Origin: Bacteroidota bacterium
GTDB lineage: Bacteria; Bacteroidota; Bacteroidia; Flavobacteriales; Flavobacteriaceae
Length of the DNA stretch: 60,815 bases
NCBI GenBank assembly: GCA_012522045.1
Contig: JAAYLC010000247.1
Coordinates: 1-60,815 of the forward strand
Direction of reading: 5' to 3'
The translations under genes and the position numbers were made by a program. Within the stretch, counting starts at the first letter, position 1, and the number at the start of each line of letters is the position of its first letter. This document shows, one piece after another, positions 37,809 through 55,060 of the stretch. The notes under the pieces were generated by a model. That model made no database searches, had not been told where the DNA came from, and worked only from the letters and a program-made list of their open reading frames with translations.

Positions 37809-37871
37809 TAATTTTGTAACAATAAAGAAACAAAATGTAACAGGGAATGTAACAAACGAACAGGATTTTTG
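37809..37871 (+). promoter_or_regulatory. Putative Pho box and promoter of pstSCAB-phoU
   Basis: TGTAACA occurs at 37815-37821, 37836-37842 and 37848-37854, with an inverted copy (TGTTACA) at 37774-37780. The last direct copy is 23 bases (first base to G) before the G at 37871 of a -7-like AGGATTTTTG. The same copy-to-box arrangement occurs before the lipoprotein gene at 46005. An additional TAATTTTG box at 37809-37816 could be a basal promoter. The 11-12-bp spacing recalls PhoB/PhoP direct repeats. The rest of 37638-37808 holds no gene. Confidence 0.6.
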
Positions 37872-37894: not shown

Positions 37895-38761
37895 ATGAAA
37901 AAATTATTTGTACTCCTTATGAGCAGTATTGTACTCGTAAGTTGTAATAATTCGCAAAAATCTTCCGAAGATTCAACAGAAACAAAAGCGGTTTCAACGC
38001 AATCTGTCAGAATCAAAGGGTCTGAAACGGTGCTTCCAATCTCAGAAAAAGCAGTTCAGGTTTATTTAAAAGACCACGAGGGCGCTAACCTTATGGTCAC
38101 CGGAGGAGGAAGTGGTGTGGGAATTTCATCTTTATTGAACAAGAGCACAGACATTGCACAAACTTCAAGAAAAATCAAGTTTTCAGAAAAACAAAAAATT
38201 GAAGCAGACGGGCGAAATCTCAAGGAAGTTATCATTGCCTATGATGCATTAGCGGTCATCGTCCATCCGGAAAACAAGGTTAACAACCTTACTCGCGAAC
38301 AATTGGAAGATATTTTTACCGGTAAAATAAAAAACTGGAGTGAATTGGGCGGAGATGATCTTGAAATATTGCCTTATTCCAGAGAAACATCTTCCGGAAC
38401 TTATGAGTTTTTTAAAGACAATGTCATGTCCGGGAAAAACTACGCATCCGGAATAATGAGTATGCCTGCAAACGGTTCTATTATTCAATCTGTTGGACAA
38501 ACAAAAGGTGCGATTTCATACGTTGGTGTGGCATACATTAACCAATCGGTTCAGCCGGTTTCTGTTTCCTTTGACCAAGGAGAAACTTTTGTTGCTCCCA
38601 CTGCTGAAAACGTAAAAAACGAAAGTTATCCAATTGTAAGACCCCTGTATTATTACTATTTAGTAACACCGGAACAACCCGAGAAAGAATTTATGGATTT
38701 TATCCTATCCGATGAAGGTCAAAAAATTGTGGAAGAAGTCGGTTATATCAGTATTCGATAA
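37895..38761 (+). CDS. pstS: PstS, phosphate-binding lipoprotein
   Basis: A 288-residue periplasmic binding protein anchored as a lipoprotein (SSIVLVSCNNS, Cys at residue 17). IKGSETVLPISEKA and TGGGSGVGISSL form the first-lobe phosphate site. NLTREQLEDIFTGKIKNWSELGG and SRETSSGTYEFF (about residues 131-173) are the hallmark second-lobe motifs. It delivers phosphate to PstC and PstA. It is the first gene of the operon and is preceded by the proposed Pho box. Confidence 0.95.
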   Translation: MKKLFVLLMSSIVLVSCNNSQKSSEDSTETKAVSTQSVRIKGSETVLPISEKAVQVYLKDHEGANLMVTGGGSGVGISSLLNKSTDIAQTSRKIKFSEKQKIEADGRNLKEVIIAYDALAVIVHPENKVNNLTREQLEDIFTGKIKNWSELGGDDLEILPYSRETSSGTYEFFKDNVMSGKNYASGIMSMPANGSIIQSVGQTKGAISYVGVAYINQSVQPVSVSFDQGETFVAPTAENVKNESYPIVRPLYYYYLVTPEQPEKEFMDFILSDEGQKIVEEVGYISIR

Positions 38762-38785: not shown

Positions 38786-39991
38786 ATGCACAAACAAAAA
38801 ATACACCGACGCATTTTAGATAAAATCACGGAAAAATTATTAACCCTTAGCGGTGCGCTTACAAGTATCATCATTGTATTTATCAGTGTTTTTCTTTTTA
38901 CTGAAGGAATTGGGCTATTTAATACTCCTGACATCGAAGAAGGTTATGCATTATATGTCAACAGTGAAAATCGTATCGATAACCTGAGTCCGGAAGAAAC
39001 CAAACAAATTTTCGATGCTGAAGTTACTTCCTGGAAAGCTTTTGGAGGGGAAGATGTGGCTATCAACGTATTTAGATTGGATGCTATTTTTAATTTTTAT
39101 TCCGAAAATGAGTTGGGAGAAAATTACGAGCTTCTTCCGGAAAAATTAGGAGAAGTCATCAGTCGAGAAAAAGGAATCATTGCTTTTCTTCCAAACGAAT
39201 ATGCACCGCAAGGATTGCAAGTCAGAAAATTAGAAACAGCTACAGTAACTCTTGAAGATTATTTTTTAGGAACCGATTGGATTCCTACCGCTACACCCGC
39301 TCCGTTGTTTGGGGTTTTGCCATTGGTTTTGGGAACTTTATTGGTAAGTTTTGGTGCCATGATTATTGCGTTACCGTTAGGATTGGGTGTAGCTATTTAT
39401 CTTTCGGAGCTCGCCGGAAACAGAGAACGTAAACTTATGAAACCCCTCGTTGAGTTGCTCGCTGGAATTCCTTCGGTAGTATATGGTTTTTTTGGTTTGG
39501 TTATCGTTGCTCCTTTGGTTCAAAAAGCATTTAATCTTCCCGTAGGCGAAACCGCTCTTACAGGAAGTATCATTTTAGCGATTATGGCATTGCCCACCAT
39601 AATTTCTGTTGCGGAAGATGCCATGAGAAATACCCCATTGGGAATGCGTGAAGCCAGTTTGGCATTGGGTGCTACAAAATGGCAAACTATTTATAAAGTG
39701 GTGATTCCCTATGCCAAATCCGGAATTTCTGCTGCCATCGTTTTAGGAATCGGACGTGCCATCGGAGAAACGATGGCTGTTTTAATGGTTACCGGAAATG
39801 CTGCAGTAATGCCTACTTCATTTTTTGAATCTGTCCGAACCATACCGGCAACAATTGCAGCGGAACTAGGCGAAGCTCCGGCAGGGGGTGCGCATTATCA
39901 GGCATTGTTTTTACTGGGCGCAATTTTGTTTGTATTTACATTGATAATTTCAGTTTCGGCAGAACTTATCTCAAAGAAAAGACATTCGTAA
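38786..39991 (+). CDS. pstC: PstC permease with an inserted PstS-like segment
   Basis: A phosphate ABC transporter permease of 401 residues, about 100 longer than the classical form. The C-terminal part (about 172-395) has the normal PstC helices and the EAA loop (MREASLALGATKWQTI). Between the first helix (about 20-42) and the second lies an extracytoplasmic segment (about 45-165). Residues 56-94 align with residues 121-159 of the neighbouring PstS: both have NL(S/T)xEexxxIF, a conserved Trp and GG(E/D)D, 14 identities in 39 positions by eye. The phosphate-contacting RETSSGT of PstS is not conserved (RLDAIFNF). The segment may dock PstS or act as a sensor. Confidence 0.9.
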   Translation: MHKQKIHRRILDKITEKLLTLSGALTSIIIVFISVFLFTEGIGLFNTPDIEEGYALYVNSENRIDNLSPEETKQIFDAEVTSWKAFGGEDVAINVFRLDAIFNFYSENELGENYELLPEKLGEVISREKGIIAFLPNEYAPQGLQVRKLETATVTLEDYFLGTDWIPTATPAPLFGVLPLVLGTLLVSFGAMIIALPLGLGVAIYLSELAGNRERKLMKPLVELLAGIPSVVYGFFGLVIVAPLVQKAFNLPVGETALTGSIILAIMALPTIISVAEDAMRNTPLGMREASLALGATKWQTIYKVVIPYAKSGISAAIVLGIGRAIGETMAVLMVTGNAAVMPTSFFESVRTIPATIAAELGEAPAGGAHYQALFLLGAILFVFTLIISVSAELISKKRHS

Positions 39992-40825
39992 ATGAATAAG
40001 AAAGTAAGTCAAAATATCGCATTTTTTATCTTTAAGTTCTTCGGAGTGTTGGTTATCGGAATCCTGTTCAGTATAATTGGTTTCATCGGATACAACGGAA
40101 TTCAAGTAATCAGTTGGGAGTTTTTAACCGAATTTCCTAAAGAAGGCATGACTTCGGGAGGAATATTTCCTGCAATCGTAGGAACATTTTATTTGGTTGT
40201 AGGAAGTCTCATCTTTGCATTTCCGCTTGGAGTGATGTCTGCTATTTATACCACCGAATACGCCGGAAAAGGATGGATTGTAAGAATCATCAGGATTATG
40301 ACTAACAATCTTGCCAGCATTCCATCTATCGTTTTCGGATTGTTTGGGATGGCATTGTTTGTTAACAAATTAAATTTCGGAGATTCCATTTTGGCGGGTT
40401 CCTTAACCCTTGGTTTGTTAGTTTTACCATTAATTATCAGAACCTCTGAAGAAGCATTGTTAGCAGTTCCGCAAAGTTATCGAGAAGGAAGTTTGGCATT
40501 GGGCGCAACCAAATTGCAAACAATCAGACGCATTGTTTTGCCTGCGGCTTTTGGGAATATCATCACCGGATTAATATTATCAATCGGAAGGGTATCGGGT
40601 GAAACTGCTCCCATTTTATTCACCGTTGCAGCCTACTTTTTACCAAAATTACCATCAGGAATATTTGATCAAGCTATGGCACTGCCCTATCATTTATATG
40701 TGTTGGCAACAAGCGGAACGGATCTTGAAGCTTCCCGACCCATGGCGTATGGAACCGCATTAGTACTTATACTGATTGTATTAATTATGAATTTAATCGC
40801 TTCATTTTTTAGAAAAAAATTATAA
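39992..40825 (+). CDS. pstA: PstA, phosphate ABC transporter permease
   Basis: A 277-residue permease with six hydrophobic helices. GGIFPAIVGTFYLVVGSLIFAFPLGVMSAIYTTEYA and the EAA loop YREGSLALGATKLQTIRRIVLP are typical of PstA. It pairs with PstC to form the channel and starts immediately after the pstC stop codon. Confidence 0.96.
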   Translation: MNKKVSQNIAFFIFKFFGVLVIGILFSIIGFIGYNGIQVISWEFLTEFPKEGMTSGGIFPAIVGTFYLVVGSLIFAFPLGVMSAIYTTEYAGKGWIVRIIRIMTNNLASIPSIVFGLFGMALFVNKLNFGDSILAGSLTLGLLVLPLIIRTSEEALLAVPQSYREGSLALGATKLQTIRRIVLPAAFGNIITGLILSIGRVSGETAPILFTVAAYFLPKLPSGIFDQAMALPYHLYVLATSGTDLEASRPMAYGTALVLILIVLIMNLIASFFRKKL

Positions 40826-40835
40826 ATAACAACTC

Positions 40836-41582
40836 ATGATTGAAGCTAAAAATATTGACTTTTATTACGGCAATTTTCAGGCATTGAAAAATATCAGCAT
40901 GAAAATTGAACCAAAAACCGTTACCGCATTTATCGGTCCTTCCGGTTGTGGAAAATCTACATTCTTGCGAATTTTTAACCGCATGAACGATTTAATCAAG
41001 GATACGCAAATGGAAGGTGAATGCTTGATAAACGGACAAAATATTTACGACAAATCAATAAATATCGACAATTTGAGAAAAGATGTGGGAATGGTTTTTC
41101 AAAAACCAAATCCGTTTCCAAAATCCATTTTCGAAAATGTTGCTTACGGGCTGCGCGTAAATAATATGGGAGATAAAAGCTTTATCGGACAACGCGTGGA
41201 AGAATCCTTAAAAGATGCCGCTTTGTGGGATGAAGTTAAAGATAAACTAAACAAATCTGCCTACGAACTTTCCGGCGGACAACAACAACGCTTGTGTATC
41301 GCCAGAGCGTTGGCTGTAAAACCTTCAATTATACTCATGGATGAACCTGCTTCTGCGCTGGATCCAATTTCAACTTCAAAAATTGAGGAATTAATTCACA
41401 ATTTAAAAAATCAATATACCATTGTCATTGTTACACACAATATGCAACAAGCAGCGCGAGTGAGTGACAATACCGGATTTTTTATGTTGGGCGAATTAAT
41501 CGAATACAGCAACACGAAAAAAATGTTTCTAAATCCTGAAAAAGAAACTACGCAGAATTACATTACAGGAAGATTTGGATAA
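40836..41582 (+). CDS. pstB: PstB, phosphate ABC transporter ATPase
   Basis: A 248-residue ATP-binding subunit. It has Walker A (GPSGCGKST, about 33-41), the Q-loop ([16 protein letters not shown], a PstB hallmark), the ABC signature ([16 protein letters not shown]), Walker B ([13 protein letters not shown]) and the H-loop ([13 protein letters not shown]). It powers phosphate uptake through PstCA. Confidence 0.98.
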
Positions 41583-41609
41583 TCTTATAACATATTGAAT
41601 TTAAAGCAA

Positions 41610-42278
41610 ATGAACCATAAAGAAGAAGAATTAAAATTATTAAAAGACGAAATCATTCAGATGTGGAAACTGGTGATTTCGCAGCTTGAAAAAGCAAAAA
41701 TTGCTTTTTTAACGAATGATGTCGAGCTTGCCCTGGAAATTGCACAAACCGAAAAAAGAGTGAATTCTATGGAGCTTAAAGTAGAGCGAAATTGTGAAAA
41801 TTACATTGCGCTTTATAACCCTGTTGCCATCGATTTGCGGTTGGTGCTTTCTATTATGAAAATCAGTATCAGCCTTGAAAGAATTGGCGATTATGCCGAA
41901 GGAATTGCGCATCATATCATCGACAGAGATTGTAATAACATCGATAATGAACTGATTGAAGAACTGGAAATCGAAAAAATGTTCGGTGTATTGCTTAACA
42001 TGATTACAAATGCTTTGGTAATTTTTGATTTGGAAGAAACAAAGTCTTCAAGGAAAATCTTGAAAAAAGACAAAGAAGTAAATCGAATCTATAAAATGGC
42101 ATTTGAACGATTGGAATCGTATGTATTAAAAAATCCAAAGGATGCATTATGCGGATTAAAATTGATTCTTTTAATTCGAAAATTGGAGCGTTTTGGAGAT
42201 CACTCAGGAAACATCGTGGAAGAAATTGTGTTTTTTCTTGATGCCAAAGTGCTTAAACACAAAGGCAAACTTGAATAA
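41610..42278 (+). CDS. phoU: PhoU, phosphate signalling regulator
   Basis: A 222-residue protein with two repeats of a three-helix PhoU domain. The metal-binding-type motifs are visible: DLRLVLSIMKISISLERIGDYAEGIA in repeat one and LILLIRKLERFGDHSGNIVEEIVF in repeat two. It couples PstSCAB transport to PhoR kinase activity. The in-frame upstream start at 41595 is TTG; the ATG at 41610 is preferred. The PhoR-like kinase is encoded about 6 kb downstream in the same cluster. Confidence 0.93.
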   Translation: MNHKEEELKLLKDEIIQMWKLVISQLEKAKIAFLTNDVELALEIAQTEKRVNSMELKVERNCENYIALYNPVAIDLRLVLSIMKISISLERIGDYAEGIAHHIIDRDCNNIDNELIEELEIEKMFGVLLNMITNALVIFDLEETKSSRKILKKDKEVNRIYKMAFERLESYVLKNPKDALCGLKLILLIRKLERFGDHSGNIVEEIVFFLDAKVLKHKGKLE

Positions 42279-42327: not shown

Positions 42328-42954
42328 ATGGAATTATTCCTAATCGTTTTTGCAAGTGTGTTCTCTGTGATGAACCCCTTGGGAACCGTGCCGATATTTG
42401 TCGCGCTGACATAAGAAGACAGTCGAAAAGAAAAAAACAAAACTTCGCTTTTAACTGCAATCAACGCTTTTGTCATCTTATTTTTGTCATTTTTAATCGG
42501 AAGATACCTACTGATTTTCTTTGGAATTTCAATCGAATCGCTGCGCATTGCCGGCGGGCTGGTAATAGCTTCTTCAGGTTTTGCATTATTAACGGGCAGT
42601 TTTAACAAACACAAGGGAATTGAAAACGCATCGATTAAAAAGGACATCCATACACGTGAGTCAATATCTATCACTCCGTTAGCAATTCCTATGTTAGCAG
42701 GCCCCGGAACAATTTCATTGTTGATTTCGCTGCAAAAGGAATACCTTCAATTGTCGCAGCAACTCATCATCATCGGCGCTTTGGTGTTGGTTTGTGCTAT
42801 TATTTATTTCATGTTGAGAAATTCACATTACATCGTCAAACTTCTGGGCGCTTCAGGTTTAAATGCCATTTCGCGCATCGTGGGATTTATTGTCATTGCA
42901 ATCGGAATTGAATACATCAGCTCCTCAATCATTACCATTATTTCTAATCTTTAA
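42328..42954 (+). pseudogene. MarC family membrane protein gene interrupted by an in-frame stop
   Basis: Read from the ATG at 42328, the frame begins MELFLIVFASVFSVMNPLGTVPIFVALT and then meets TAA at 42412-42414 (codon 29). It continues in the same frame without another stop to 42954, through a typical MarC body (ITPLAIPMLAGPGTISLLISL). The expected codon at the stop is CAA (Gln, giving TQEDSR), so a single C-to-T change explains it. Intact, the protein would have 208 residues and six helices. Internal initiation (for example at 42484) would lack the first helices. It lies between phoU and the TonB-dependent receptor. A sequencing error is possible. Confidence 0.8.
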
Positions 42955-43062: not shown

Positions 43063-43097
43063 CGTAACAGTTTAGAAACAACTGCATACGACATTTG
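43063..43097 (+). promoter_or_regulatory. Possible weak Pho box and promoter of the TonB-dependent receptor
   Basis: CGTAACA (43063-43069) and AGAAACA (43074-43080) are 11 bases apart. The second is 23 bases, first base to G, before the G at 43097 of a TTTG box. That geometry equals the clearer sites before pstS and the lipoprotein gene, but the repeats are degenerate. Confidence 0.35.
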
Positions 43098-43124: not shown

Positions 43125-45821
43125 ATGATTAAAAATAATATATTCAGACAATTAGCCTTCTTGATGCTGTTTTTAAATGCCGGATTTGCTTTTGGACAAT
43201 CCGGGGTTATAGAAGGACGCGTCATTGACAAAGAAACGCAAGAACCACTTTTTGGCGCATCCATCATCTTAGAAGGAACTACCGTAGGTGCAATGGTGGA
43301 TATGGACGGACATTATGTAATTGCCAATGTGCGTCCGGGAAATTACAATTTATCAGGCTCCTATATATCATACGAAACACAAACTGTTGAAAATATTGAA
43401 ATTAAGCCGGGAGAAACCATCCGTATCAATTTGGAACTCGAAAGTCAATACAACACTTTGGAAGCAGTAGGAATCGTAGCAAAAGCCAATCGCGAAACGG
43501 AAACTGCATTGTTGTTGGATCGAAGAAATGCCATATCAGCAACACAAAGTATCGGAGCCTCTGAATTGTCGAGAAAAGGAATCAGCGATGCACAGGCTGC
43601 CGTTTCTTCTGTTTCCGGAATATCAAAACAAGAAGGTGTAAAAAATATTTTTGTCCGCGGTTTGGGCGACCGCTACAACGCTACCCTGCTTAACGGCCTC
43701 CCAATTCCTTCCGAAGATCCGGAATACAAAAACATTTCACTTTCTATTTTTGAATCGGATGTTATTAAAAATATCGGCGTCGAAAAAGTTTTTACTTCTT
43801 CATATAGCGGAGATGTCGGCGGTGCAATTATCGATATCAGCTCTAAAGAATTAGTCGGAAGACGCGCTCTGGATTTCAGTATTTCCGGAGGTTTCAACTC
43901 CAATACCTTAGGCGAAACTTTATACAATCCCGATGGAGCTGACTATTTCGGTTTTTCAAATTCACTACAACCGACTCAGGGACTTTTTGATTTTCCCAAC
44001 AGTTTGGATCCCTCCTCCCTTTCTACGCCTATAAATCACAGCTTCAGAATTTCCGGAGGGAAACGATTTTTAATGGGAAATAATCCGTTGACTTTTTATG
44101 TAGTGGCAAGCCATTCCGTTGAAAATATGTTTACAGAAGAAGTGGTGAAAAATATGACCAGCAACGGAACGATTTATCAAAATCAAATCGGAAAAAGATA
44201 TGGAAATAAGACAAATCAATTAGCCTTGGCAAATATCAATTACGACATAAACAACAAACACTCAGTTGCTTATAATTTTATGATGCTTCATGCGACTCAT
44301 CAATATGTGGGAGATTATTTGGGAAGGCATTCAGAGAAATTTCAAGATTCCTACAACGAAAGTGGATTTAGCAGACGTCAGCAAATAAATGAAAACCTTT
44401 TGTTTACCCACCAACTTTTATCGAGATGGCAATTGAATGACAAGTTCGATTTAACTGCAGATTTTTCATTAAACACCATCCGTGGTTTGGAGCCTGACCG
44501 TCGTGAAAATTATTTGTCAGAAAAAGAAAACGGTACTTACGGATTGACAGGAAGCAATCGACAAAAGCGATTTTTCTCTGAACTTACAGAACACGATTAC
44601 AATACCAAATTTGTTTTAAGTTATTCATTAAATGACGCTTTAGAAAGTAACAATTCAAAAATTTTATTGGGATATCACGGGCAATTCGCTACCAATGATT
44701 TTGAATCGATAGAATATAACTTTTCACACATTCCGGGCGATGTTCCCTTAACAAATTTTTCATTAGACCAACTTTACAATGAAGAAAACTATAGCAACGA
44801 AAGCTTTAGCATGACCGAAAGCAATCCGAACAAATATTCGGTTGAGATAAACAATCATTCTGTTTTTGCACAAGGAAATTATCAGTTTACTAAAGCTTTT
44901 AGTGCAAACCTTGGTTTCAGAATGGATTTTGTAAACCTTCACGTGGAGTATGATGTTCCCGGTCAAATGGGTGAAAACAGCATAGAAAATCCTTATTATC
45001 TGCCCAGTTTGAATTTAAAATATGATATCAACGACAACAATTCCCTTCGTTTGGGCGCCAGCAAAACCTACACCTTACCGCAATCAAAGGAAATTTCACC
45101 ATTTCAATATGTAAATATCAGTTTTGCCAGTGAAGGAAACCCAAATCTTTTACCATCAGATAATTACAACATCGATTTCCGATGGGATAATTATTTAAGC
45201 GCTTCGGAACTATTATCCGGAACTGTTTTTTACAAGCGCATTGAAAATCCGATTGGTAGGGTTGACAAAGGAAACTCTGCAGGATTGCTTACTTATGAAA
45301 ACATCAGTGATGTAGCCGATGTAATGGGTGTGGAAATAGAAGTGCGAAAAAATTTGTTAACCACAGAAAATCTTGAAAATCAAAAGAGAAACAAATTGTC
45401 TTTAGGAACAAACGCTTCGTATATTTTAACGACTACTAAATTAAATTTGACCAATACCCCGGAACGCACATCCGAATTGGAAGGCGCCTCTCCTTTTCTG
45501 TTAAATGCCGATTTAACCCATCAATACACCAATAAGGGAAATGATTGGACTACCTCCCTTGTGTTTAATTATTTCAGTGATCGCATTCACACCATTGGAA
45601 CCATTGGTTATGAAGACATTATGGAAGAGGGAACGGCGACCCTGAATTTAATCTCTTCGTATAAATTCTCAAATAATATGGGAATCAGTTTGAAAGTTTC
45701 CAATCTTTTGGATTCACCGATAGAACTCACGAGAAAAATCAGCAGTTCCAACGAAAAAATAACGCTTAACAAGTTCAATCGCGGAATTAATTTCAGTCTT
45801 GGATTCAGTTTTGAAATCTAA
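43125..45821 (+). CDS. TonB-dependent outer-membrane receptor of the phosphate cluster
   Basis: An 898-residue outer-membrane receptor. A signal peptide ends near GFAFGQ (residue 25). It is followed by a carboxypeptidase-regulatory-like domain (VIEGRVIDKETQEPLFGASI) and a plug domain with IFVRGLGDRYNATLLNGLPIPS. A long beta-barrel region ends in the aromatic GINFSLGFSFEI. No SusD partner follows; instead a beta-helix-like lipoprotein gene does. Its place inside the pst/pho cluster suggests import of a phosphorus source such as polyphosphate or an organophosphate, which is inferred. Confidence 0.88.
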   Translation: MIKNNIFRQLAFLMLFLNAGFAFGQSGVIEGRVIDKETQEPLFGASIILEGTTVGAMVDMDGHYVIANVRPGNYNLSGSYISYETQTVENIEIKPGETIRINLELESQYNTLEAVGIVAKANRETETALLLDRRNAISATQSIGASELSRKGISDAQAAVSSVSGISKQEGVKNIFVRGLGDRYNATLLNGLPIPSEDPEYKNISLSIFESDVIKNIGVEKVFTSSYSGDVGGAIIDISSKELVGRRALDFSISGGFNSNTLGETLYNPDGADYFGFSNSLQPTQGLFDFPNSLDPSSLSTPINHSFRISGGKRFLMGNNPLTFYVVASHSVENMFTEEVVKNMTSNGTIYQNQIGKRYGNKTNQLALANINYDINNKHSVAYNFMMLHATHQYVGDYLGRHSEKFQDSYNESGFSRRQQINENLLFTHQLLSRWQLNDKFDLTADFSLNTIRGLEPDRRENYLSEKENGTYGLTGSNRQKRFFSELTEHDYNTKFVLSYSLNDALESNNSKILLGYHGQFATNDFESIEYNFSHIPGDVPLTNFSLDQLYNEENYSNESFSMTESNPNKYSVEINNHSVFAQGNYQFTKAFSANLGFRMDFVNLHVEYDVPGQMGENSIENPYYLPSLNLKYDINDNNSLRLGASKTYTLPQSKEISPFQYVNISFASEGNPNLLPSDNYNIDFRWDNYLSASELLSGTVFYKRIENPIGRVDKGNSAGLLTYENISDVADVMGVEIEVRKNLLTTENLENQKRNKLSLGTNASYILTTTKLNLTNTPERTSELEGASPFLLNADLTHQYTNKGNDWTTSLVFNYFSDRIHTIGTIGYEDIMEEGTATLNLISSYKFSNNMGISLKVSNLLDSPIELTRKISSSNEKITLNKFNRGINFSLGFSFEI

Positions 45822-45863
45822 CAGTAACATTTTTGTGTAAAGCTTTCAAAAACAGCTCAAAAA

Positions 45864-45920
45864 TGTAACAAAATGATAATAATAATTCAAAGACAATGTA
45901 ACAAGACAATAGGAATTTTG
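45864..45920 (+). promoter_or_regulatory. Putative Pho box and promoter of the lipoprotein gene
   Basis: TGTAACA occurs at 45864-45870 and 45897-45903, 33 bases (three times 11) apart. The second copy is 23 bases, first base to G, before the G at 45920 of AGGAATTTTG. The stretch from the second TGTAACA through the box is nearly identical to that before pstS. Confidence 0.6.
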
Positions 45921-46004
45921 GCACAAATAAAATCAAGTAAATAATTGAAAATGAAATTAATAAACAAAAACCAATTTTTATTTAACCCCTTAACAGGAAT
46001 GACT

Positions 46005-47192
46005 ATGAATTTTAAAAAGAAAATCATGCGTTTTAACCCTATTGCAGCATTAATAATAGCAATAACTTTAGTCTCATGTTCAAATGACGACAACGGAAAC
46101 GGTGGATCAGAAACTCCTCCGACAGCTTCGGAATTAGTAGGAAGCATCACGGGAAACAAAACTTTGGATCCTTCCATCACTTACACCATTACGGGTCCTG
46201 TAATCGTTGAAGACGGAGCTGAATTAACCATTCCGGCGGGAACACGAATTGAAGCAAGAAAAGGATTTAACAGTTACATTCTTGTGCTGCAAGGTGGAAA
46301 AATATTTGCAAACGGTACTGCAGAAGCGCCGGTTGTAATGACTGCGGACACTCCAAACGCTGAAGAAGGACACTGGGGCGGGCTTGTCATCAATGGATAT
46401 GCGCCTTTGGCAGGTGGAACTATCGGTAGTACAGAGATTAGCTCTGCTTTTGAATATGGCGGATCGAACCCCGGTGATAGTTCCGGAGTATTAACTTATT
46501 TGATTTTAGACTATACCGGTGCACGTTCAAGTGCAGACGTTGAGCACAACGGACTGACATTAAACGGAGTTGGAAACGGAACCAAAATTGAAAATATCTT
46601 TGTTAGAAATGCAGCAGATGACGGTATCGAATTTTTCGGAGGAACCGTAAACGTAACCAATCTTCTGGTTGTTAATTCTGATGACGATATGTTTGACTTT
46701 ACTCAAGGATACACCGGAACCTTAGAAAATGCCTATGGAATTTGGGAACAAGGTTTTACCAGTTCAGAATCTGACCCGAGAGGTATTGAAGCAGATGGTA
46801 ACTTAGACGGAAACTTCCCTTCACAAACAGGACAATCCGATTTTGTTATCAGAAACATTACTTTCGATTTGCGTTTAAGTAAAGCCAACGACAACGATCC
46901 TTCAAATGTTACCAATAAAATGCAAGATGTTATCAAGATTCGCCGCGGTGCAAAAGCTCATATTACCAATGCGTTGGTTAAAGGAACCGGAACTGCTATT
47001 GATTTGATTGATTTCAGCGACGGAAAAGGAACCGGTGATTCAGGATCTTCTATCAGTCTTACCAACCAATTGACAAATGATCACATCGGAAAAACGATCA
47101 ATCCAGAAGAAGGATTCCCCGGAGCTGTAATAGAATCCGGAAATACAGGTTGCCCAACATCAATATTTTCTTGGACCAACTATAATTTCTAA
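46005..47192 (+). CDS. Beta-helix-like surface lipoprotein of the phosphate cluster
   Basis: A lipoprotein of about 395 residues. With the ATG at 46005 the signal is MNFKKKIMRFNPIAALIIAITLVSC, ending in a lipobox Cys; longer starts at 45951 (ATG) or 45945 (TTG) would make it unusually long. After an Asn/Gly-rich linker, short strands recur (VEDGAELTIPAGTRIEA, ILVLQGGKIFANGTAEAPVVMTA, HWGGLVINGYAPL, and later VRNAADDGIEFFGGTVNVTNLLVVNSDDDMFDFTQG), as in right-handed parallel beta-helix proteins. Asp-rich turns could bind metal ions. From memory, similar proteins often follow TonB-dependent receptors in Bacteroidota. It probably captures a ligand for the receptor upstream. The enzymatic role, if any, is unknown. 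Confidence 0.75.
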   Translation: MNFKKKIMRFNPIAALIIAITLVSCSNDDNGNGGSETPPTASELVGSITGNKTLDPSITYTITGPVIVEDGAELTIPAGTRIEARKGFNSYILVLQGGKIFANGTAEAPVVMTADTPNAEEGHWGGLVINGYAPLAGGTIGSTEISSAFEYGGSNPGDSSGVLTYLILDYTGARSSADVEHNGLTLNGVGNGTKIENIFVRNAADDGIEFFGGTVNVTNLLVVNSDDDMFDFTQGYTGTLENAYGIWEQGFTSSESDPRGIEADGNLDGNFPSQTGQSDFVIRNITFDLRLSKANDNDPSNVTNKMQDVIKIRRGAKAHITNALVKGTGTAIDLIDFSDGKGTGDSGSSISLTNQLTNDHIGKTINPEEGFPGAVIESGNTGCPTSIFSWTNYNF

Positions 47193-47303: not shown

Positions 47304-47360
47304 TATTTTTAGAACAAATTGAGCGACATAACTTATCATCGTTCAAATATTAAAAAATCC

Positions 47361-48050
47361 ATGGATAAACAAAAAATTTTACTGGTTGATGACGATCAAA
47401 ACATTTCAGAAATTTTAGAATTCAATTTAAAAAATGAAGGCTTTGAAGTGAAAGCCGTCGCATCAGCAGAAGAAGCTTTAAAACAACCTATCTCAGAATA
47501 TCAACTCATCTTATTAGATGTCATGATGGGCGGCATGTCCGGTCTTAAAATGGCCGAAAAACTACGAGGCAAAAACATTCACATTCCAATCATATTTTTA
47601 ACTGCAAAAGATACAGAGAACGATATGCTTACCGGTTTTTCAGTAGGAGGAGATGATTATATTCCAAAACCGTTTTCAATTAAAGAAGTCATTGCGCGAA
47701 TCAAAGCAGTCTTAAAACGAAGTCCGGTAAATACAGAAAGCATCCCGGAAAACGGCCTCTTGGATTTAGGTCCTATTGTCATCGATTTTAATTTAAAAGA
47801 AGTGATTGTCGACACGAAGAAAATTGCATTGACAAAAACTGAATTTGAGTTGTTGGCATTGCTTGCACAAAATCAGGATACTATTTTTTCGCGTGATAAA
47901 ATAATCAGTCAAGTTTGGGAAGATACTTATGTAAATGAACGAACGGTGGATGTTCACATTACACGTTTGAGAAAAAAATTAGGCAAATATGGCGACGCTA
48001 TTACAAATCGTTCGGGTTACGGTTACCGATTTAATTTAGAAAATGTATGA
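47361..48050 (+). CDS. PhoB-like response regulator (OmpR family)
   Basis: A 229-residue regulator. The receiver domain has acidic residues D10-D12, the phosphoacceptor D53 (LILLDVMM), T81 and K103 (IPKPFS). The C-terminal winged helix has LTKTEFELLALLAQN and VNERTVDVHITRLRKKLGKYGDAI, the OmpR/PhoB DNA-recognition helix. An earlier TTG start (47319) adds 14 unconserved residues. It overlaps the kinase gene by four bases (ATGA). Location with pst genes and phoU makes it the likely Pho regulon activator, binding TGTAACA repeats. Confidence 0.9.
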   Translation: MDKQKILLVDDDQNISEILEFNLKNEGFEVKAVASAEEALKQPISEYQLILLDVMMGGMSGLKMAEKLRGKNIHIPIIFLTAKDTENDMLTGFSVGGDDYIPKPFSIKEVIARIKAVLKRSPVNTESIPENGLLDLGPIVIDFNLKEVIVDTKKIALTKTEFELLALLAQNQDTIFSRDKIISQVWEDTYVNERTVDVHITRLRKKLGKYGDAITNRSGYGYRFNLENV

Positions 48051-49756
48051 AGTTAACGTTTCGTCAGCGACTGTTTTTATATGTTGCTTTACTTTTTATA
48101 ATTGTTACCGTAGGAATTGCATTGTTCGAAAATTCCCGTGAAAGACAATTTAAAACCGAAGCGTTAACAGAACAACTTGAGATTTACACCGATGTTATTC
48201 AATCGCAACTAACACTAAATAACGATTTTCAAATTTCTCAAGTTGAAAATGTCCAAAATGTCATGCCGCCGGAATTGCGAATCACCATCCTAGATTTATC
48301 CGGAAATGTGTTGTTTGACAATGCCGTTGAGAATGTTGAAAGGTTAGAAAATCACATTGGCAGAGAAGAAGTAATTGATGCGCGTACAACCACTACCAAT
48401 ACGGGATCACACATCAGACTTTCAGAATCTACAGACATCAAATACCTGTATTTTGCAAAAAAATATTCCGGCAACTATGTAAGAGTTGCTTTGCCTTACG
48501 ACATTGAGGTGCGCCAGTTTATAAAAGCAGATAACTTATTTCTATATTTTCTAATAATTATCGGTGGCGTTTCGCTGTTTCTCATTCATAGAATTACTCA
48601 CCAATTTGGTTCATCTATCAAACGATTGCACAATTTTGCAATGCAACCCTCCGATACTTCCATCAATTTTACGGATGATGAAATTGGAGTTATCGGAAAT
48701 AAGATTTTAGAAAACTATAAACAAATTGAAGCGCATAAAAAAAATCTTACCTTAGAAAAACAAAAACTACTTCAGCATATTCAGATTTCCGAAGAAGGAA
48801 TTTGTTTCGTTTCCAGTTCGGGAAAAGTAGAGTATCACAACGGATTGTTTATTCAATATTTAAATCAATTGACAGACGAACCCAAGAGTGAAGCATATGA
48901 AGTATTGATAGATCCTACCTTCGAACAACTTCATGATTTTATAGTTCACGGCGAAGACAATTATTTTGATACACAAATCAACAAACACGGGAAAATATTC
49001 TCTTTGCGTGCCATTATTTTTGAGGATAAGAGTTTTGAAATTATTCTTACCGACATTTCTCAACAAGAGAAAACTCAAAAACTAAAACAAGAAATCACCG
49101 GAAACATTGCTCATGAATTGCGTACACCGGTAACAAGTATTCGCGCTTATTTGGAAACGGTTTTAGACCATGAGCTTCCCGATGATAAAAAGGAATATTT
49201 TATCCGTCAGGCGTATACACAAACGATGACTTTATCAGAAATGATTAAAGATATAAGCATTATCAGTCGTGTAGAAGAAGCACCAAATTCATTTGATTTG
49301 GAAGCGGTTGATATAAGACATCTATTATCGAATCTAAAAAAAGAAAAAGCTACAGCTTTGGCAGAGAAAAATATGAAAATGCAATGGGATTTGCCGGAAA
49401 AATGCATCGTTAAAGGAAATTTGAGTTTATTAAATTCAATTTTCAGAAACCTCATTGAAAATTCCATACGGTATGCCGGAGAGAATGTAGTTATCAATAT
49501 TTCCGTGTATAAAGAAGATGAAAAGTTTTATTATTTTTCATTTTACGATACCGGAAAAGGGATTCAAAATGAAACTGCCCTCAACCGTATTTTTGAGCGT
49601 TTTTATCGCGTTCATGAAGGCAGAACACGAGATACAGGCGGAAGTGGTTTGGGACTGTCTATCGTGAAGAATGCCGTGCTATTTCACAAAGGAATGATAA
49701 CGGCAAAAAACAGGAAAAACGCAGGATTGGAATTTATTTTCAACTTACACAAATAA
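48047..49756 (+). CDS. PhoR-like sensor histidine kinase
   Basis: A 569-residue membrane kinase. The first helix spans about residues 9-26, an extracytoplasmic domain about 27-160, the second helix about 164-181, then a linker and a PAS-like region (about 245-340). The HisKA domain has the phospho-accepting H356 in NIAHELRTPVTSIRAYLE. The ATPase domain has the N box (NSIFRNLIENSIRYA), the G1 motif (FYDTGKGI) and G2 (DTGGSGLGLSIVKNA). It would phosphorylate the adjacent regulator under control of PhoU and the Pst transporter. The sizeable extracytoplasmic domain differs from E. coli PhoR, which has almost none. Confidence 0.9.
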   Translation: MKLTFRQRLFLYVALLFIIVTVGIALFENSRERQFKTEALTEQLEIYTDVIQSQLTLNNDFQISQVENVQNVMPPELRITILDLSGNVLFDNAVENVERLENHIGREEVIDARTTTTNTGSHIRLSESTDIKYLYFAKKYSGNYVRVALPYDIEVRQFIKADNLFLYFLIIIGGVSLFLIHRITHQFGSSIKRLHNFAMQPSDTSINFTDDEIGVIGNKILENYKQIEAHKKNLTLEKQKLLQHIQISEEGICFVSSSGKVEYHNGLFIQYLNQLTDEPKSEAYEVLIDPTFEQLHDFIVHGEDNYFDTQINKHGKIFSLRAIIFEDKSFEIILTDISQQEKTQKLKQEITGNIAHELRTPVTSIRAYLETVLDHELPDDKKEYFIRQAYTQTMTLSEMIKDISIISRVEEAPNSFDLEAVDIRHLLSNLKKEKATALAEKNMKMQWDLPEKCIVKGNLSLLNSIFRNLIENSIRYAGENVVINISVYKEDEKFYYFSFYDTGKGIQNETALNRIFERFYRVHEGRTRDTGGSGLGLSIVKNAVLFHKGMITAKNRKNAGLEFIFNLHK

Positions 49757-52429: not shown

Positions 52430-55060
52430 TTAGAAGTCGTATCGAAGGCTTGCATTCCACGTTCTTCCGTTCCCCCAGTAATAACCGTAAGAATCTTTTT
52501 GGCTCAAATAACTTTCATTTGCCAGATTGTGAACATTCGCTCGGAAAGTTACGTTGTTTCCTCCGAAATTGAATTTGTATGAAAGACCGGCGTCTAATAA
52601 CGTAAATGCCGACAAACGCTCTGCTTGGTAAACTTCACCTCTTAATGCGGCATTGATTACTTCGCGCGTATCTACAAATCCATACAAATCTGTATAAATA
52701 TTATAATCTGCATCTATGGCTAATCCGTCGATGATTTCATATTTAAAACCAAATCCGAAAGAAGTTTGTGCAGCGTTCCCCACTTTGGTTCCTGTTAAAT
52801 CCAGTGTTCCTTCATCCAACACCTGATTGTTTTCCTCAGAACGCGTTTGATAAGGTGTGGTTCCGTCGTATTTCCAATTTCCGATACTTCCGAATGCGCG
52901 AAGCATAAACACAGATGAATAGCGGTATTTACCTTCAAATTCGAAGCCTTTATGAACTTGTGTAACTCCCGTAAATCTTTGAACTCTATTTAATTGTTGA
53001 TTTGGATTGGAACTGTTGGGATCGCCCGGTATAAAATTGTAAACAAACCTGTTTCCCCATTTTGTATAATATCCGTTTAAATCCAGACTGACATTTCCGG
53101 AACGAATTCTATACCCCGCTTCAATTCCGGTAATTTCTTCATTGTCAACCTCATTGATTCCGGAAAGAATGTAATTTGAATTCCTGATGTCTTCAAAAAT
53201 ATTATCTAAATAAGGCTGTCTTGAATACTGACCTGCATTTGCAAAAATAGTGTGTCCGTCAACAAACGTATATCCCATTCCGCCTTTTATATTGTATCCG
53301 GTTTTATTCACTTTTTCTGACTTTCCAAGTCCATTCACTCCTTCAATCTCCACTCCGGTGGCACGTCCTTCTCTTTGATAACTTTGAGTACTTACAGCAC
53401 CTTGAATAAAAGCTGAAAACTTTTGTTTTTTATACTCTGCTTGTCCAAAAGCTCCTATATAATTGATGTATTCGGTATACTCGTAATTAAACCGTTGATC
53501 TTCACTTGCCGAGTTAAAAAGTGCAGCCCACGGATTTGCTTCGAAAGTCTCGGTGATTACATAATTGTCGGGACGCATTCCGTCAAACCCAAAATTGTCT
53601 GCATAACCGTTTAATCCCAGCAAATCATTCAACTGATACCAGTGGTTTCCACTATACATTCGCGAATCAATTCCCACATTGAAATTAAAATTCTCGTTGA
53701 TTTCATTTTCATAATTTGTTAGGAACCCGTACCAATTGTGATTATTTACAGACATTCTTCTAACCATTGAACCGGCGTCATAACTTCCGATACCGTTGTC
53801 TGCTCCTTGGATGTTATTCTGTACAATGGCATCAAAATCAATGTTTCCAAATTCATCTCTTACAATATTTCGTGAACTTCCTGCAGGTCCGGTACCACCA
53901 CCGCGTCCCCACGAAGCGTATAAAACCGAAGAAAGGAAACTCTTTTCGTTAATTTCCCAATCCCAATTTAAATTGGCAATAGGTTTGTGATAGTAGTTTC
54001 TACGAAAGGTATAGCGTTCGCCATCTTTAAAACCTGAGTTGTCATTGTACAGTTTTCCATACTCCTCATACACTTCAAGTCTTTTAGAATAATTTTGATC
54101 GTGAAATTGCGGAGCTCCTGTTAAAAGGAAATTAAATGAATGTTTCTCGTTAGGCATATATCCGATTCCGACAAAATAATTTTGTCCTTGACCCGTGGTT
54201 CCTTCTGCAAATTTTCGATGTGCCTGCCAGTGATCAAAAAGGAAGGAATATGCCCATTTTCCTTGCAATCCGGAGTTGTAGCTGACGGTTCCTTTCAAAT
54301 AACTGTCATTACCACCCATAAAACGTACAAAACCGCCTTCTCTATTATCGGCAACACGCGAAACAATGTTTACAGTTCCGCCTACAGAAGAAATTGCAAG
54401 TTTGGAAGAACCAAGTCCCCGCTGAACCTGAACTGCATTGGCAACATCTGACATTCCTGACCAGTTTGACCAATACACGCGTCCGTCTTCCATTCCGTTA
54501 ATAGGTTGACCGTTTAATAAAAATGCGGTATTCGTCTGATCAAATCCGCGCAAGAACATTTGTGAATCGCCAAATCCTCCGGCTTGATTTGAGACATAAA
54601 CACTGGGAGTACTTTTCATAATTTCAGGGAATTCGACGTTTCCGATTCCCTTTGTTTGAATTTCAACGGAACTAATCGTAGATACTGCAATAGGCGTTTG
54701 ACGATCCGAAGCCATATCAATCACACCTCGCCCGACTAATATCACTTCTGCCAAAGCATCAGAATCAAGTTGAAGTTTAATTGGACCTAACTCCTCAGTT
54801 CCGGAAATATTGGAAAAAGAAACCGTTTGAATGGAATATCCAATATAGGAGATGGTCAATGTTCCTGATGTTGAAGCCGTAGAAAGTATAAAGCTTCCGT
54901 CAAAATCGGTAATGGTCCCATTTGAAGTCCCATTTTCCACAACATTGGCACCTGCCAAAGGAATGTTAGTCTCAGAATCAACTACGCTTCCTTTAAGCGT
55001 GTTTTGAGCAAATGTTGCTGTACTCAGCATTACAATGAACAATAATAGTAATTTACGCAT
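52430..55060 (-). CDS. TonB-dependent outer-membrane receptor
   Basis: An 876-residue receptor. A signal peptide ends near MLSTATFAQ (residue 19). A carboxypeptidase-like domain (LKGSVVDSETNIPLAGANVVENG) and a plug (RQTPIAVSTISSVEIQTKG, then FLRGFDQTNTAFLLNGQPING) follow. A beta-barrel region of siderophore/vitamin-receptor style ends with RTWNASLRYDF, a terminal Phe. No SusD, ABC transporter or metal regulator is adjacent, so the ligand is unknown. It is monocistronic, with a terminator directly downstream. Confidence 0.88.
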   Translation of the reverse strand: MRKLLLLFIVMLSTATFAQNTLKGSVVDSETNIPLAGANVVENGTSNGTITDFDGSFILSTASTSGTLTISYIGYSIQTVSFSNISGTEELGPIKLQLDSDALAEVILVGRGVIDMASDRQTPIAVSTISSVEIQTKGIGNVEFPEIMKSTPSVYVSNQAGGFGDSQMFLRGFDQTNTAFLLNGQPINGMEDGRVYWSNWSGMSDVANAVQVQRGLGSSKLAISSVGGTVNIVSRVADNREGGFVRFMGGNDSYLKGTVSYNSGLQGKWAYSFLFDHWQAHRKFAEGTTGQGQNYFVGIGYMPNEKHSFNFLLTGAPQFHDQNYSKRLEVYEEYGKLYNDNSGFKDGERYTFRRNYYHKPIANLNWDWEINEKSFLSSVLYASWGRGGGTGPAGSSRNIVRDEFGNIDFDAIVQNNIQGADNGIGSYDAGSMVRRMSVNNHNWYGFLTNYENEINENFNFNVGIDSRMYSGNHWYQLNDLLGLNGYADNFGFDGMRPDNYVITETFEANPWAALFNSASEDQRFNYEYTEYINYIGAFGQAEYKKQKFSAFIQGAVSTQSYQREGRATGVEIEGVNGLGKSEKVNKTGYNIKGGMGYTFVDGHTIFANAGQYSRQPYLDNIFEDIRNSNYILSGINEVDNEEITGIEAGYRIRSGNVSLDLNGYYTKWGNRFVYNFIPGDPNSSNPNQQLNRVQRFTGVTQVHKGFEFEGKYRYSSVFMLRAFGSIGNWKYDGTTPYQTRSEENNQVLDEGTLDLTGTKVGNAAQTSFGFGFKYEIIDGLAIDADYNIYTDLYGFVDTREVINAALRGEVYQAERLSAFTLLDAGLSYKFNFGGNNVTFRANVHNLANESYLSQKDSYGYYWGNGRTWNASLRYDF

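Follow-up and report, generated by a model that had tools for sequence, protein, structure and literature searches.

To our knowledge, little has been learnt of the routes by which phosphorus compounds pass the outer membrane in Bacteroidota. The window analysed here, a 60,815-nucleotide stretch of DNA from a Bacteroidota bacterium, raises the question of whether such a route is encoded next to the phosphate regulators. An initial annotation, made from the sequence alone, had placed a TonB-dependent receptor (TBDR) and a lipoprotein between phoU and a PhoBR pair, and had proposed that the lipoprotein replaces SusD as a surface capture protein for a phosphorus source. The genes of the locus are the following:

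37895..38761, + strand: pstS, phosphate-binding lipoprotein of the Pst ABC importer (TIGR02136, 258.9 bits against a cut-off of 206.6)
38786..41582, + strand: pstC, pstA and pstB (Pfam BPD_transp_1 twice, ABC_tran)
41595..42278, + strand: phoU (Pfam PhoU, 123.4 bits)
42328..42954, + strand: marC-like gene (Pfam MarC on 42484-42954)
43125..45821, + strand: TBDR of the CC0171/Fjoh_0545 type (Pfam; 898 aa)
45951 (or 46005)..47192, + strand: probable ElpS/FII-type surface lipoprotein, a right-handed beta-helix in its AlphaFold2 model
47319..48050, + strand: phoB-type response regulator (Response_reg and Trans_reg_C)
48047..49756, + strand: phoR-type sensor kinase (HisKA and HATPase_c)

The names pstC, pstA and pstB follow from gene order and from 65-83% matches in the pst operons of loci L034, L039 and L040. 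According to the open reading frames and the Pfam matches on the flanks, the pair had been located correctly, coordinates included, and both of its reading frames are open in the window. The layout given for its surroundings stood as well, and can be extended to PstS, PstC, PstA, PstB and PhoU on one side and PhoB and PhoR on the other, with one correction: phoU and the receptor are separated by a marC-like gene. In translation, this gene has an in-frame TAA at codon 29 (reading from 42328), and it is probably not part of the system. The window pair is linked to pst as well as to phoBR. The reported absence of SusD and of a phosphatase holds for the cluster proteins given to Pfam, and type II secretion (gsp) genes are absent among the genes of the cluster.

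Regarding the receptor, Pfam finds an N-terminal CarbopepD_reg_2 domain, a Plug and a TonB_dep_Rec_b-barrel. It reaches 136 bits with TIGR01782, below the cut-off of 310, and 54 bits with the SusC model TIGR04056 (cut-off 368.25), over the N-terminal region only. A relationship to SusCD was dropped, given this distance from the TIGR04056 cut-off and a partner with no Pfam match to the SusD family. In the structural model of the receptor the plug is weak (pLDDT < 50).

The lipoprotein carries a lipobox-like LVSC, and its start is most likely at 45951 or 46005 rather than at the TTG at 45945. Pfam gave no match at E<=0.1, there was no sequence match of note in Pfam, NCBIfam or the PDB, and a PDB sequence search with the protein and with its profile returned nothing useful. 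Structure prediction, which the initial annotation had proposed as a check, confirmed the beta-helix as a prediction: the AlphaFold2 model (pLDDT 91.6) is right-handed and built of short strands. This model and the alignment, in which Asp-rich turns are evident, bear out the repeated strands and turns that had been read from the sequence. Eight residues (E180, N182, D205, D206, E209, D227, D228 and D231) are conserved in nearly all aligned Flavobacteriales and Proteobacteria domains. In the alignment and the model, the invariant acids recur at the same position in successive coils and form a ladder with the cross-phylum motifs E-x-N, DDGxE, DDxxD and ExD. That the lipoprotein takes SusD's place as surface capture protein is plausible. 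Anionic phosphate is not a ligand that one would readily expect on an acidic face, which counts against capture.

The receptor lies directly upstream of the lipoprotein in 78 of 80 relatives with loci on genome contigs, the two misses falling at contig ends, so that the pairing is not a chance find. Among 76 Flavobacteriales genomes (best match in each), 70 have a same-strand adjacent receptor, 48 with the receptor first and 22 with the lipoprotein first. PhoB and PhoR both occur within the fetched region (mostly ~19.5 kb) in 49 of these 76 genomes, and in 46 the single best PhoB match of the genome is <=10.5 kb from the lipoprotein; in the Flavobacteriales relatives fetched, PhoR-PhoB are divergent from the receptor and the lipoprotein. 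The clade of the window lipoprotein is common to Chitinophagaceae and other families and differs from the sampled Flavobacteriales clade. In its nearest clade, nine of 11 relatives have phoBR, four of these nine together with pst, and an Alteromonas relative adjoins phoB, phoR and a phosphate-binding protein. These results, with the promoter element described below, uphold the phosphate linkage and the pairing that had been proposed. In terms of position the linkage is uneven: homologues are phosphate-linked in Flavobacteriales and in the nearest clade, but lie mainly outside phosphate loci in the wider set, where phoBR (> 200 bits) is found within 10 kb in only 14 of 80 genome-contig loci (66 are without it, some of them on short contigs). 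The linkage in Flavobacteriales and the shared element therefore mean that, for this order and the nearest clade, the homologues are not found mainly away from phosphate genes.

A common element precedes the pump and both members of the pair, which we propose as a candidate PHO box:

37816..37871, + strand: candidate PHO box of pstS (GTAAC at 37816, 37837 and 37849; TTTG at 37868, 19 bases from the last GTAAC)
43064..43097, + strand: candidate PHO box of the receptor (GTAAC at 43064, TTTG at 43094; 30 = 19+11)
45865..45920, + strand: candidate PHO box of the lipoprotein (GTAAC at 45865 and 45898, 33 = 3x11 apart; TTTG at 45917, 19 from the second)

Of 43 upstream regions from the window that were examined, only these three have GTAAC in an 11-bp register with a -7 TTTG. 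Taken alone, TGTAACA shows no excess in the window (10 occurrences, shuffle mean 7.8). The strict TGTAACA-N3-6-TGTAACA is found a single time in the genome, ahead of pstS. A motif-only scan of the genome with GTAAC-N14-TTTG gave 21 matches against 69 in the reversed control, and so shows no genome-wide excess of the single element; just two of the 21, at pstS and at the lipoprotein, occupy an intergenic site a short way ahead of a credible gene. Porin_O_P is matched only marginally in the same genome.

Across relatives, the register is kept before the TBDR in 53 of 70, mostly away from phoBR, as compared with 11 among 682 control regions and with at most 2 in shuffles, and the in-register element is present in 24 of 29 alignable groups. 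GTAAC-to-TTTG spacings of 19, 30 and 41 were found in 44, 20 and 11 of the 70 relatives, respectively. The exact element precedes four of 12 clear pstS genes (those of the window, L034, L039 and L239) and is missing at those of L040, L135, L166 and L240-L244; at pstS it is absent in all five Bacteroides genomes examined. It is found before only 10 of 74 receptors of a more distant Flavobacteriales set and before only 5 of 176 lipoprotein matches, which makes the lipoprotein's own box in the window unusual. A motif-only scan for the double box in 296 Bacteroidota genomes gave a sparse 11 matches, three of them before a receptor followed by this lipoprotein, against 23 reversed-control matches listed; there is thus no enrichment, and the double-box argument rests only on the positions of the matches. 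We found no description of a Bacteroidota PHO box in the journal papers searched. What is new here is this shared DNA element, probably a switch that activates the two genes jointly with those of the phosphate pump.

On balance, we favour the reading that the pair is a phosphate-starvation outer-membrane system of the ElpS-CC0171 and Fjoh_0546-0545 kind inside a pst-phoU...phoBR locus, with PhoB as the switch, the lipoprotein capturing and the TonB receptor importing; its likely role is to capture a phosphorus source at the cell surface and to take it up under the control of PhoB. Under phosphate scarcity, PhoB would activate three promoters, those of pstSCAB-phoU, the receptor and the lipoprotein, through the common 11-bp-phased GTAAC element. 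The lipoprotein, with its anchor in the outer membrane and, by analogy with ElpS, probably displayed at the cell surface, would hold a phosphorus-bearing ligand on the conserved acidic ladder along one face of the beta-helix, where we infer that a divalent metal probably bridges the two. It would then hand the ligand to the receptor for import with TonB energy, and the phosphate released or imported would continue through PstSCAB.

One could argue that the lipoprotein is instead an enzyme of the cell surface, a hydrolase or lyase with a beta-helix fold, which degrades a phosphorus-bearing polymer (teichoic-acid-like, phosphoglycan or nucleic acid) so that the receptor imports the pieces. We regard this as possible but unlikely. 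The closest folds in VIA-align (Z ~20-22, 8-17% identity) are mostly carbohydrate-acting beta-helices, namely tailspike depolymerases, AlgG/AlgE epimerases, PL6 lyases and GH28-type enzymes, and acids repeated at one position of successive coils are what active-site grooves display; the related lipoproteins FI-FIII of Flavobacterium johnsoniae were themselves modelled on a polygalacturonase template, as a passage of PMC8115612 states. However, NosD and the adhesin PfbA, non-hydrolases by their PDB titles, score equally high, and Foldseek with the lipoprotein model gave zero matches at E<=0.001. The VIA-align scores of the Foldseek candidates were strong, but we name no enzyme family from the fold. 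Neither GH28 nor a polysaccharide lyase family, nor any other Pfam enzyme family worth naming, was found in 53 lipoprotein members at E<=0.05, the sole family in more than two of them being Beta_helix, in three. Besides, ElpS lacked alkaline phosphatase activity both as refolded and as immunoprecipitated protein, according to the sections of PMC2996285 on this protein.

The same sections report that overproduced ElpS, not being the enzyme, raised alkaline phosphatase activity in the supernatant. A shed or displayed accessory that boosts a separate phosphatase, next to a receptor with a job of its own, would agree with this and with the PhoA-type phosphatase encoded elsewhere in the window genome (C86). 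We hold it to be improbable, since a nearly universal pairing with the receptor is needless for an independent accessory; moreover, phoA has no such element upstream and PhoX was not found in the genome. Very improbable, in our view, is that the pair imports something other than phosphorus under phosphate stress, for instance a metal, alone or complexed with phosphate, that the acidic ladder would bind. The ladder does include a conserved Asn, and among the closest folds of the receptor are transporters of siderophores, copper and PQQ as well as XusA (each at ~8-13% identity), but the promoter element is common with pstS in the window, and PMC8115612 describes a tight repression of the low-phosphate loci of F. 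johnsoniae under limitation for N and for Fe.

Returning to phosphorus capture and uptake, a broader version can be offered tentatively. Bacteroidota would have a PhoB box unlike that of Escherichia coli, made of (T/C)GTAAC direct repeats every 11 bp at 19+11n from the -7 TTTG; the ElpS-type pair would be its core phylum-wide client even far from phoBR, and the acid ladder a new surface site for capturing or processing phosphorus ligands. The pair would therefore be a dedicated TonB-driven phosphorus importer found from gut Bacteroides to Caulobacter. The element offers a testable readout of phosphate regulons in Bacteroidota. From it one would predict that phosphate also controls the pair in gut Bacteroidales, in which the pair is mostly unlinked to phoBR. 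The conserved ladder provides definite residues for mutation.

Receptors joined to a surface lipoprotein other than SusD are known in Bacteroidota from XusA-XusB (PDB 9gbc) and BtuB-BtuG, with a siderophore and cobalamin as respective ligands; the fold of BtuG differs. PusCD, induced at low phosphate (passages of PMC8115612), also unites a receptor with a surface lipoprotein, whereas the window receptor is below the SusC cut-off and its partner is not of the SusD family. A literature search by locus tag led to PMC8115612, PMC2996285 and PMC7807042, and the suggestion that the pair might be undescribed had to be abandoned: it is of the same kind as Caulobacter ElpS/CC0171, published as cc0170(elpS)/cc0171 in 2010 (PMC2996285), and F. 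johnsoniae Fjoh_0545/0546, published in 2020-21 (PMC8115612), as far as their descriptions in these papers go.

In the passages of PMC2996285 concerned, ElpS is a shed, surface-anchored lipoprotein specific to phosphate starvation and, like the window lipoprotein, adjoins a TonB receptor; a functional interaction between ElpS and CC0171 was already proposed by the authors. Against the reading favoured here, cc0171 is expressed in rich and poor media alike, and deletion of elpS left alkaline phosphatase activity unchanged. In contrast to the window cluster, which has no gsp genes, the lipoprotein comes first in Caulobacter and a type II secretion operon follows. Sphingomonas and Indioceanicola plasmid relatives show this same lipoprotein-TBDR-gsp order. 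Relatives with the ElpS gene order match the window lipoprotein (E 1e-16 and 2e-17; 34-37% identity) and have the core residues in common. The secretion operon belongs to the proteobacterial form only; the relevant passages of PMC8115612 do not mention it for the Flavobacterium form.

As to F. johnsoniae, the relevant parts of PMC8115612 name FI-FIII as abundant and uncharacterised lipoproteins with 31-36% identity to ElpS, FIII being an orphan. Fjoh_3856/3857 (lipoprotein FI, PUSIII) likewise combines a related lipoprotein with a TBDT and has the strongest low-phosphate induction, but its neighbours as described are different (a protease and a PDE). Also described there is Fjoh_0545/0546 (TBDT and lipoprotein FII, PUSIV, PhoBR operon), whose strong induction by low phosphate appears as 8.0 and 9.9 in the transcriptome fold-change column: like the window, it has a TonB receptor and a surface lipoprotein of pectin-lyase fold (IPR011050) by phoBR, with no SusD. 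Compared with this description, the window adds pstSCAB-phoU and sets the pair between phoU and phoBR, all on one strand.

Between phoU and the phoBR genes, the window carries a TonB-dependent receptor and a lipoprotein, as the initial annotation had proposed. The one-strand order is pstS-pstC-pstA-pstB-phoU, a broken marC-like gene, the receptor, the lipoprotein, phoB and phoR, with the pair placed as follows:

43125-45821, same strand as the pst and pho genes, TonB-dependent receptor
45951 or 46005 to 47192, same strand as the receptor, lipoprotein

Although it is a complete TonB receptor, the protein at 43125-45821 scores just 54 of 368 bits with the SusC model; its plug region was modelled poorly. 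The marC-like gene (42328-42954), lying after phoU and before the receptor, has a TAA in frame at codon 29; it is either a pseudogene or, in a genome of 247 contigs, the product of a sequence error. On the opposite strand, 52430-55060 encodes a second TonB receptor (CarbopepD_reg_2, Plug and barrel).

The new, testable part of the finding is a promoter element. In the window, GTAAC precedes TTTG by 19 bases in the region upstream of pstS, by 30 upstream of the receptor and by 19 upstream of the lipoprotein, and among the 43 window upstream regions examined this 19+11n spacing is unique to these three genes. We take the TTTG to be part of the Bacteroidota -7 element (TAnnTTTG). PhoB boxes are repeats with an 11-bp pitch, and the element is a candidate PHO box. 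In 70 relatives, the region before the receptor shows a spacing of 19 in 44 loci, 30 in 20 and 41 in 11, with GTAAC repeats 11 bp apart in 13 loci and 22 bp apart in 11. In total, 53 of these 70 regions present an in-register element, compared with 11 of 682 control upstream regions and a mean of 0.3 (maximum 2) in shuffled sequences. The 70 regions form 29 alignable groups, and 24 of these contain one or more in-register members. When 296 Bacteroidota genomes were scanned blindly for the double box, 11 hits came up, each in a different genome. Three of these hits precede a receptor with this lipoprotein behind it, and one more adjoins a PhoB/PhoR pair. Counting against the PHO-box reading, the element was detected at just 4 of the 12 clear pstS genes, at 10 of 74 receptors in the distant Flavobacteriales set and at 5 of 176 lipoprotein matches. 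In addition, genome-wide enrichment over the respective reversed control was seen neither for the single element nor for the double one. A literature survey, largely of titles and abstract openings, found no Bacteroidota PHO box.

Receptor and lipoprotein form an old pair with a wide distribution. In 78 of 80 relatives from genome_contigs the gene just upstream of the lipoprotein is the receptor; the other two loci are truncated at a contig edge. The lipoprotein was found in 77 of 148 Flavobacteriales genomes (the window's own counted), and around the best match in each of the 76 others, 70 have an adjacent receptor on the same strand. In the tree, it falls in a clade of 12 rows (support 100/99) with Chitinophagaceae, Saprospiraceae, Crocinitomicaceae and Flavobacteriia rows. 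Identity is 66-74% within this clade; against the sampled Flavobacteriales it reaches at most 48% where matches are better covered (50% over part of the length). The simplest reading is horizontal spread. Tandem fusions of the domain (~750 aa) occur in gut Bacteroidales, with two matches in most of those loci, while Indioceanicola and Pseudoalteromonas carry two copies and Alteromonas three (tandem-fusion loci L078, L079, L082, L086, L090, L092-L094, L096, L098, L105 and L110; L114-L116). Locus L162 (G070:C3) has lipoprotein copies in a row with several in-frame stops, resembling a decaying array.

The initial interpretation is, as a whole, partly supported. Near the best match in the 76 Flavobacteriales genomes we found PhoB and PhoR in 49, PhoB alone in three and neither in 24; in 46 of the 76, the nearby PhoB is the genome's best PhoB match. 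Matching genomes (1.3-5.4 Mb) have 1 to 12 PhoB-like matches at the same threshold, so a few per cent of them would show such a coincidence within 20 kb by chance. In the window's lipoprotein clade the linkage holds too: phoBR is found within 10 kb in nine of the 11 other members (four of these nine also with pst). It does not hold in the wider set, with phoBR nearby in only 14 of 80. In 13 loci of that set, a protein of cluster c6, in its one scanned member a PiT-family phosphate permease by Pfam PHO4, is close to the pair. In Bacteroidales loci L045-L073, a MORN_2 protein (26-member cluster) and a small CarbopepD_reg protein often lie downstream of the pair, followed in 13 loci by the PiT-type permease cluster; these Pfam identities come from one scanned member per cluster.

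Searches with the lipoprotein found no match in Pfam or NCBIfam, and PDB sequences gave nothing noteworthy. AlphaFold2, given an alignment of 53 sequences, confidently predicted a right-handed beta-helix (pLDDT 91.6, pTM 0.87). Foldseek returned no match to this model at E<=0.001; VIA-align of its candidates gave Z of ~20-22 to phage tailspikes, AlgG/AlgE epimerases, PL6 lyases, GH28-like enzymes, NosD and the adhesin PfbA. These matches settle the predicted fold but assign no function. Residues E180, N182, T193, D205, D206, E209, D227, D228 and D231 are kept across Flavobacteriales, Bacteroidales and Proteobacteria, as are E262, D264 and R313 where the alignment extends that far. Judged from strand order in the model, these residues would occupy matching places on successive coils, forming a putative acidic ladder. 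Such a ladder could be explained by a ligand site bridged by metal, by an active site or by the receptor interface. We lean slightly towards a lipoprotein that would capture a ligand and pass it on to the receptor. That it acts instead by hydrolysis ranks second and seems rather doubtful. Both readings are tempered by the results on Caulobacter ElpS in PMC2996285: the protein has no phosphatase activity of its own and its deletion causes no activity loss.

The pair had been considered possibly undescribed, but accounts of such pairs exist. According to the available text of PMC8115612, the PhoBR operon of F. johnsoniae comprises Fjoh_0543 (PhoR), Fjoh_0544 (PhoB), Fjoh_0545 (TBDT) and Fjoh_0546 (lipoprotein FII), low phosphate strongly induces the last two, and the most abundant exoprotein is the related lipoprotein FI. 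The common Flavobacteriales arrangement, receptor-lipoprotein divergent from phoR-phoB, is consistent with the operon as presented there. In Caulobacter, PMC2996285 places ElpS next to the receptor CC0171, proposes a functional interaction and reports their co-occurrence across genomes, Bacteroides among them; the Caulobacter PhoB regulon includes TonB receptors, as stated in the part of PMC11208175 available. Plasmid relatives in Sphingomonas and Indioceanicola share the ElpS gene order of lipoprotein, receptor and gsp operon. On an Alteromonas plasmid, the three-copy lipoprotein lies next to phoB, phoR and a phosphate-binding protein; that block (L116) also holds the receptor and its own ExbB/ExbD-like set. 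Together, the F. johnsoniae and Caulobacter pairs and the plasmid relatives place the window pair in an already known kind.
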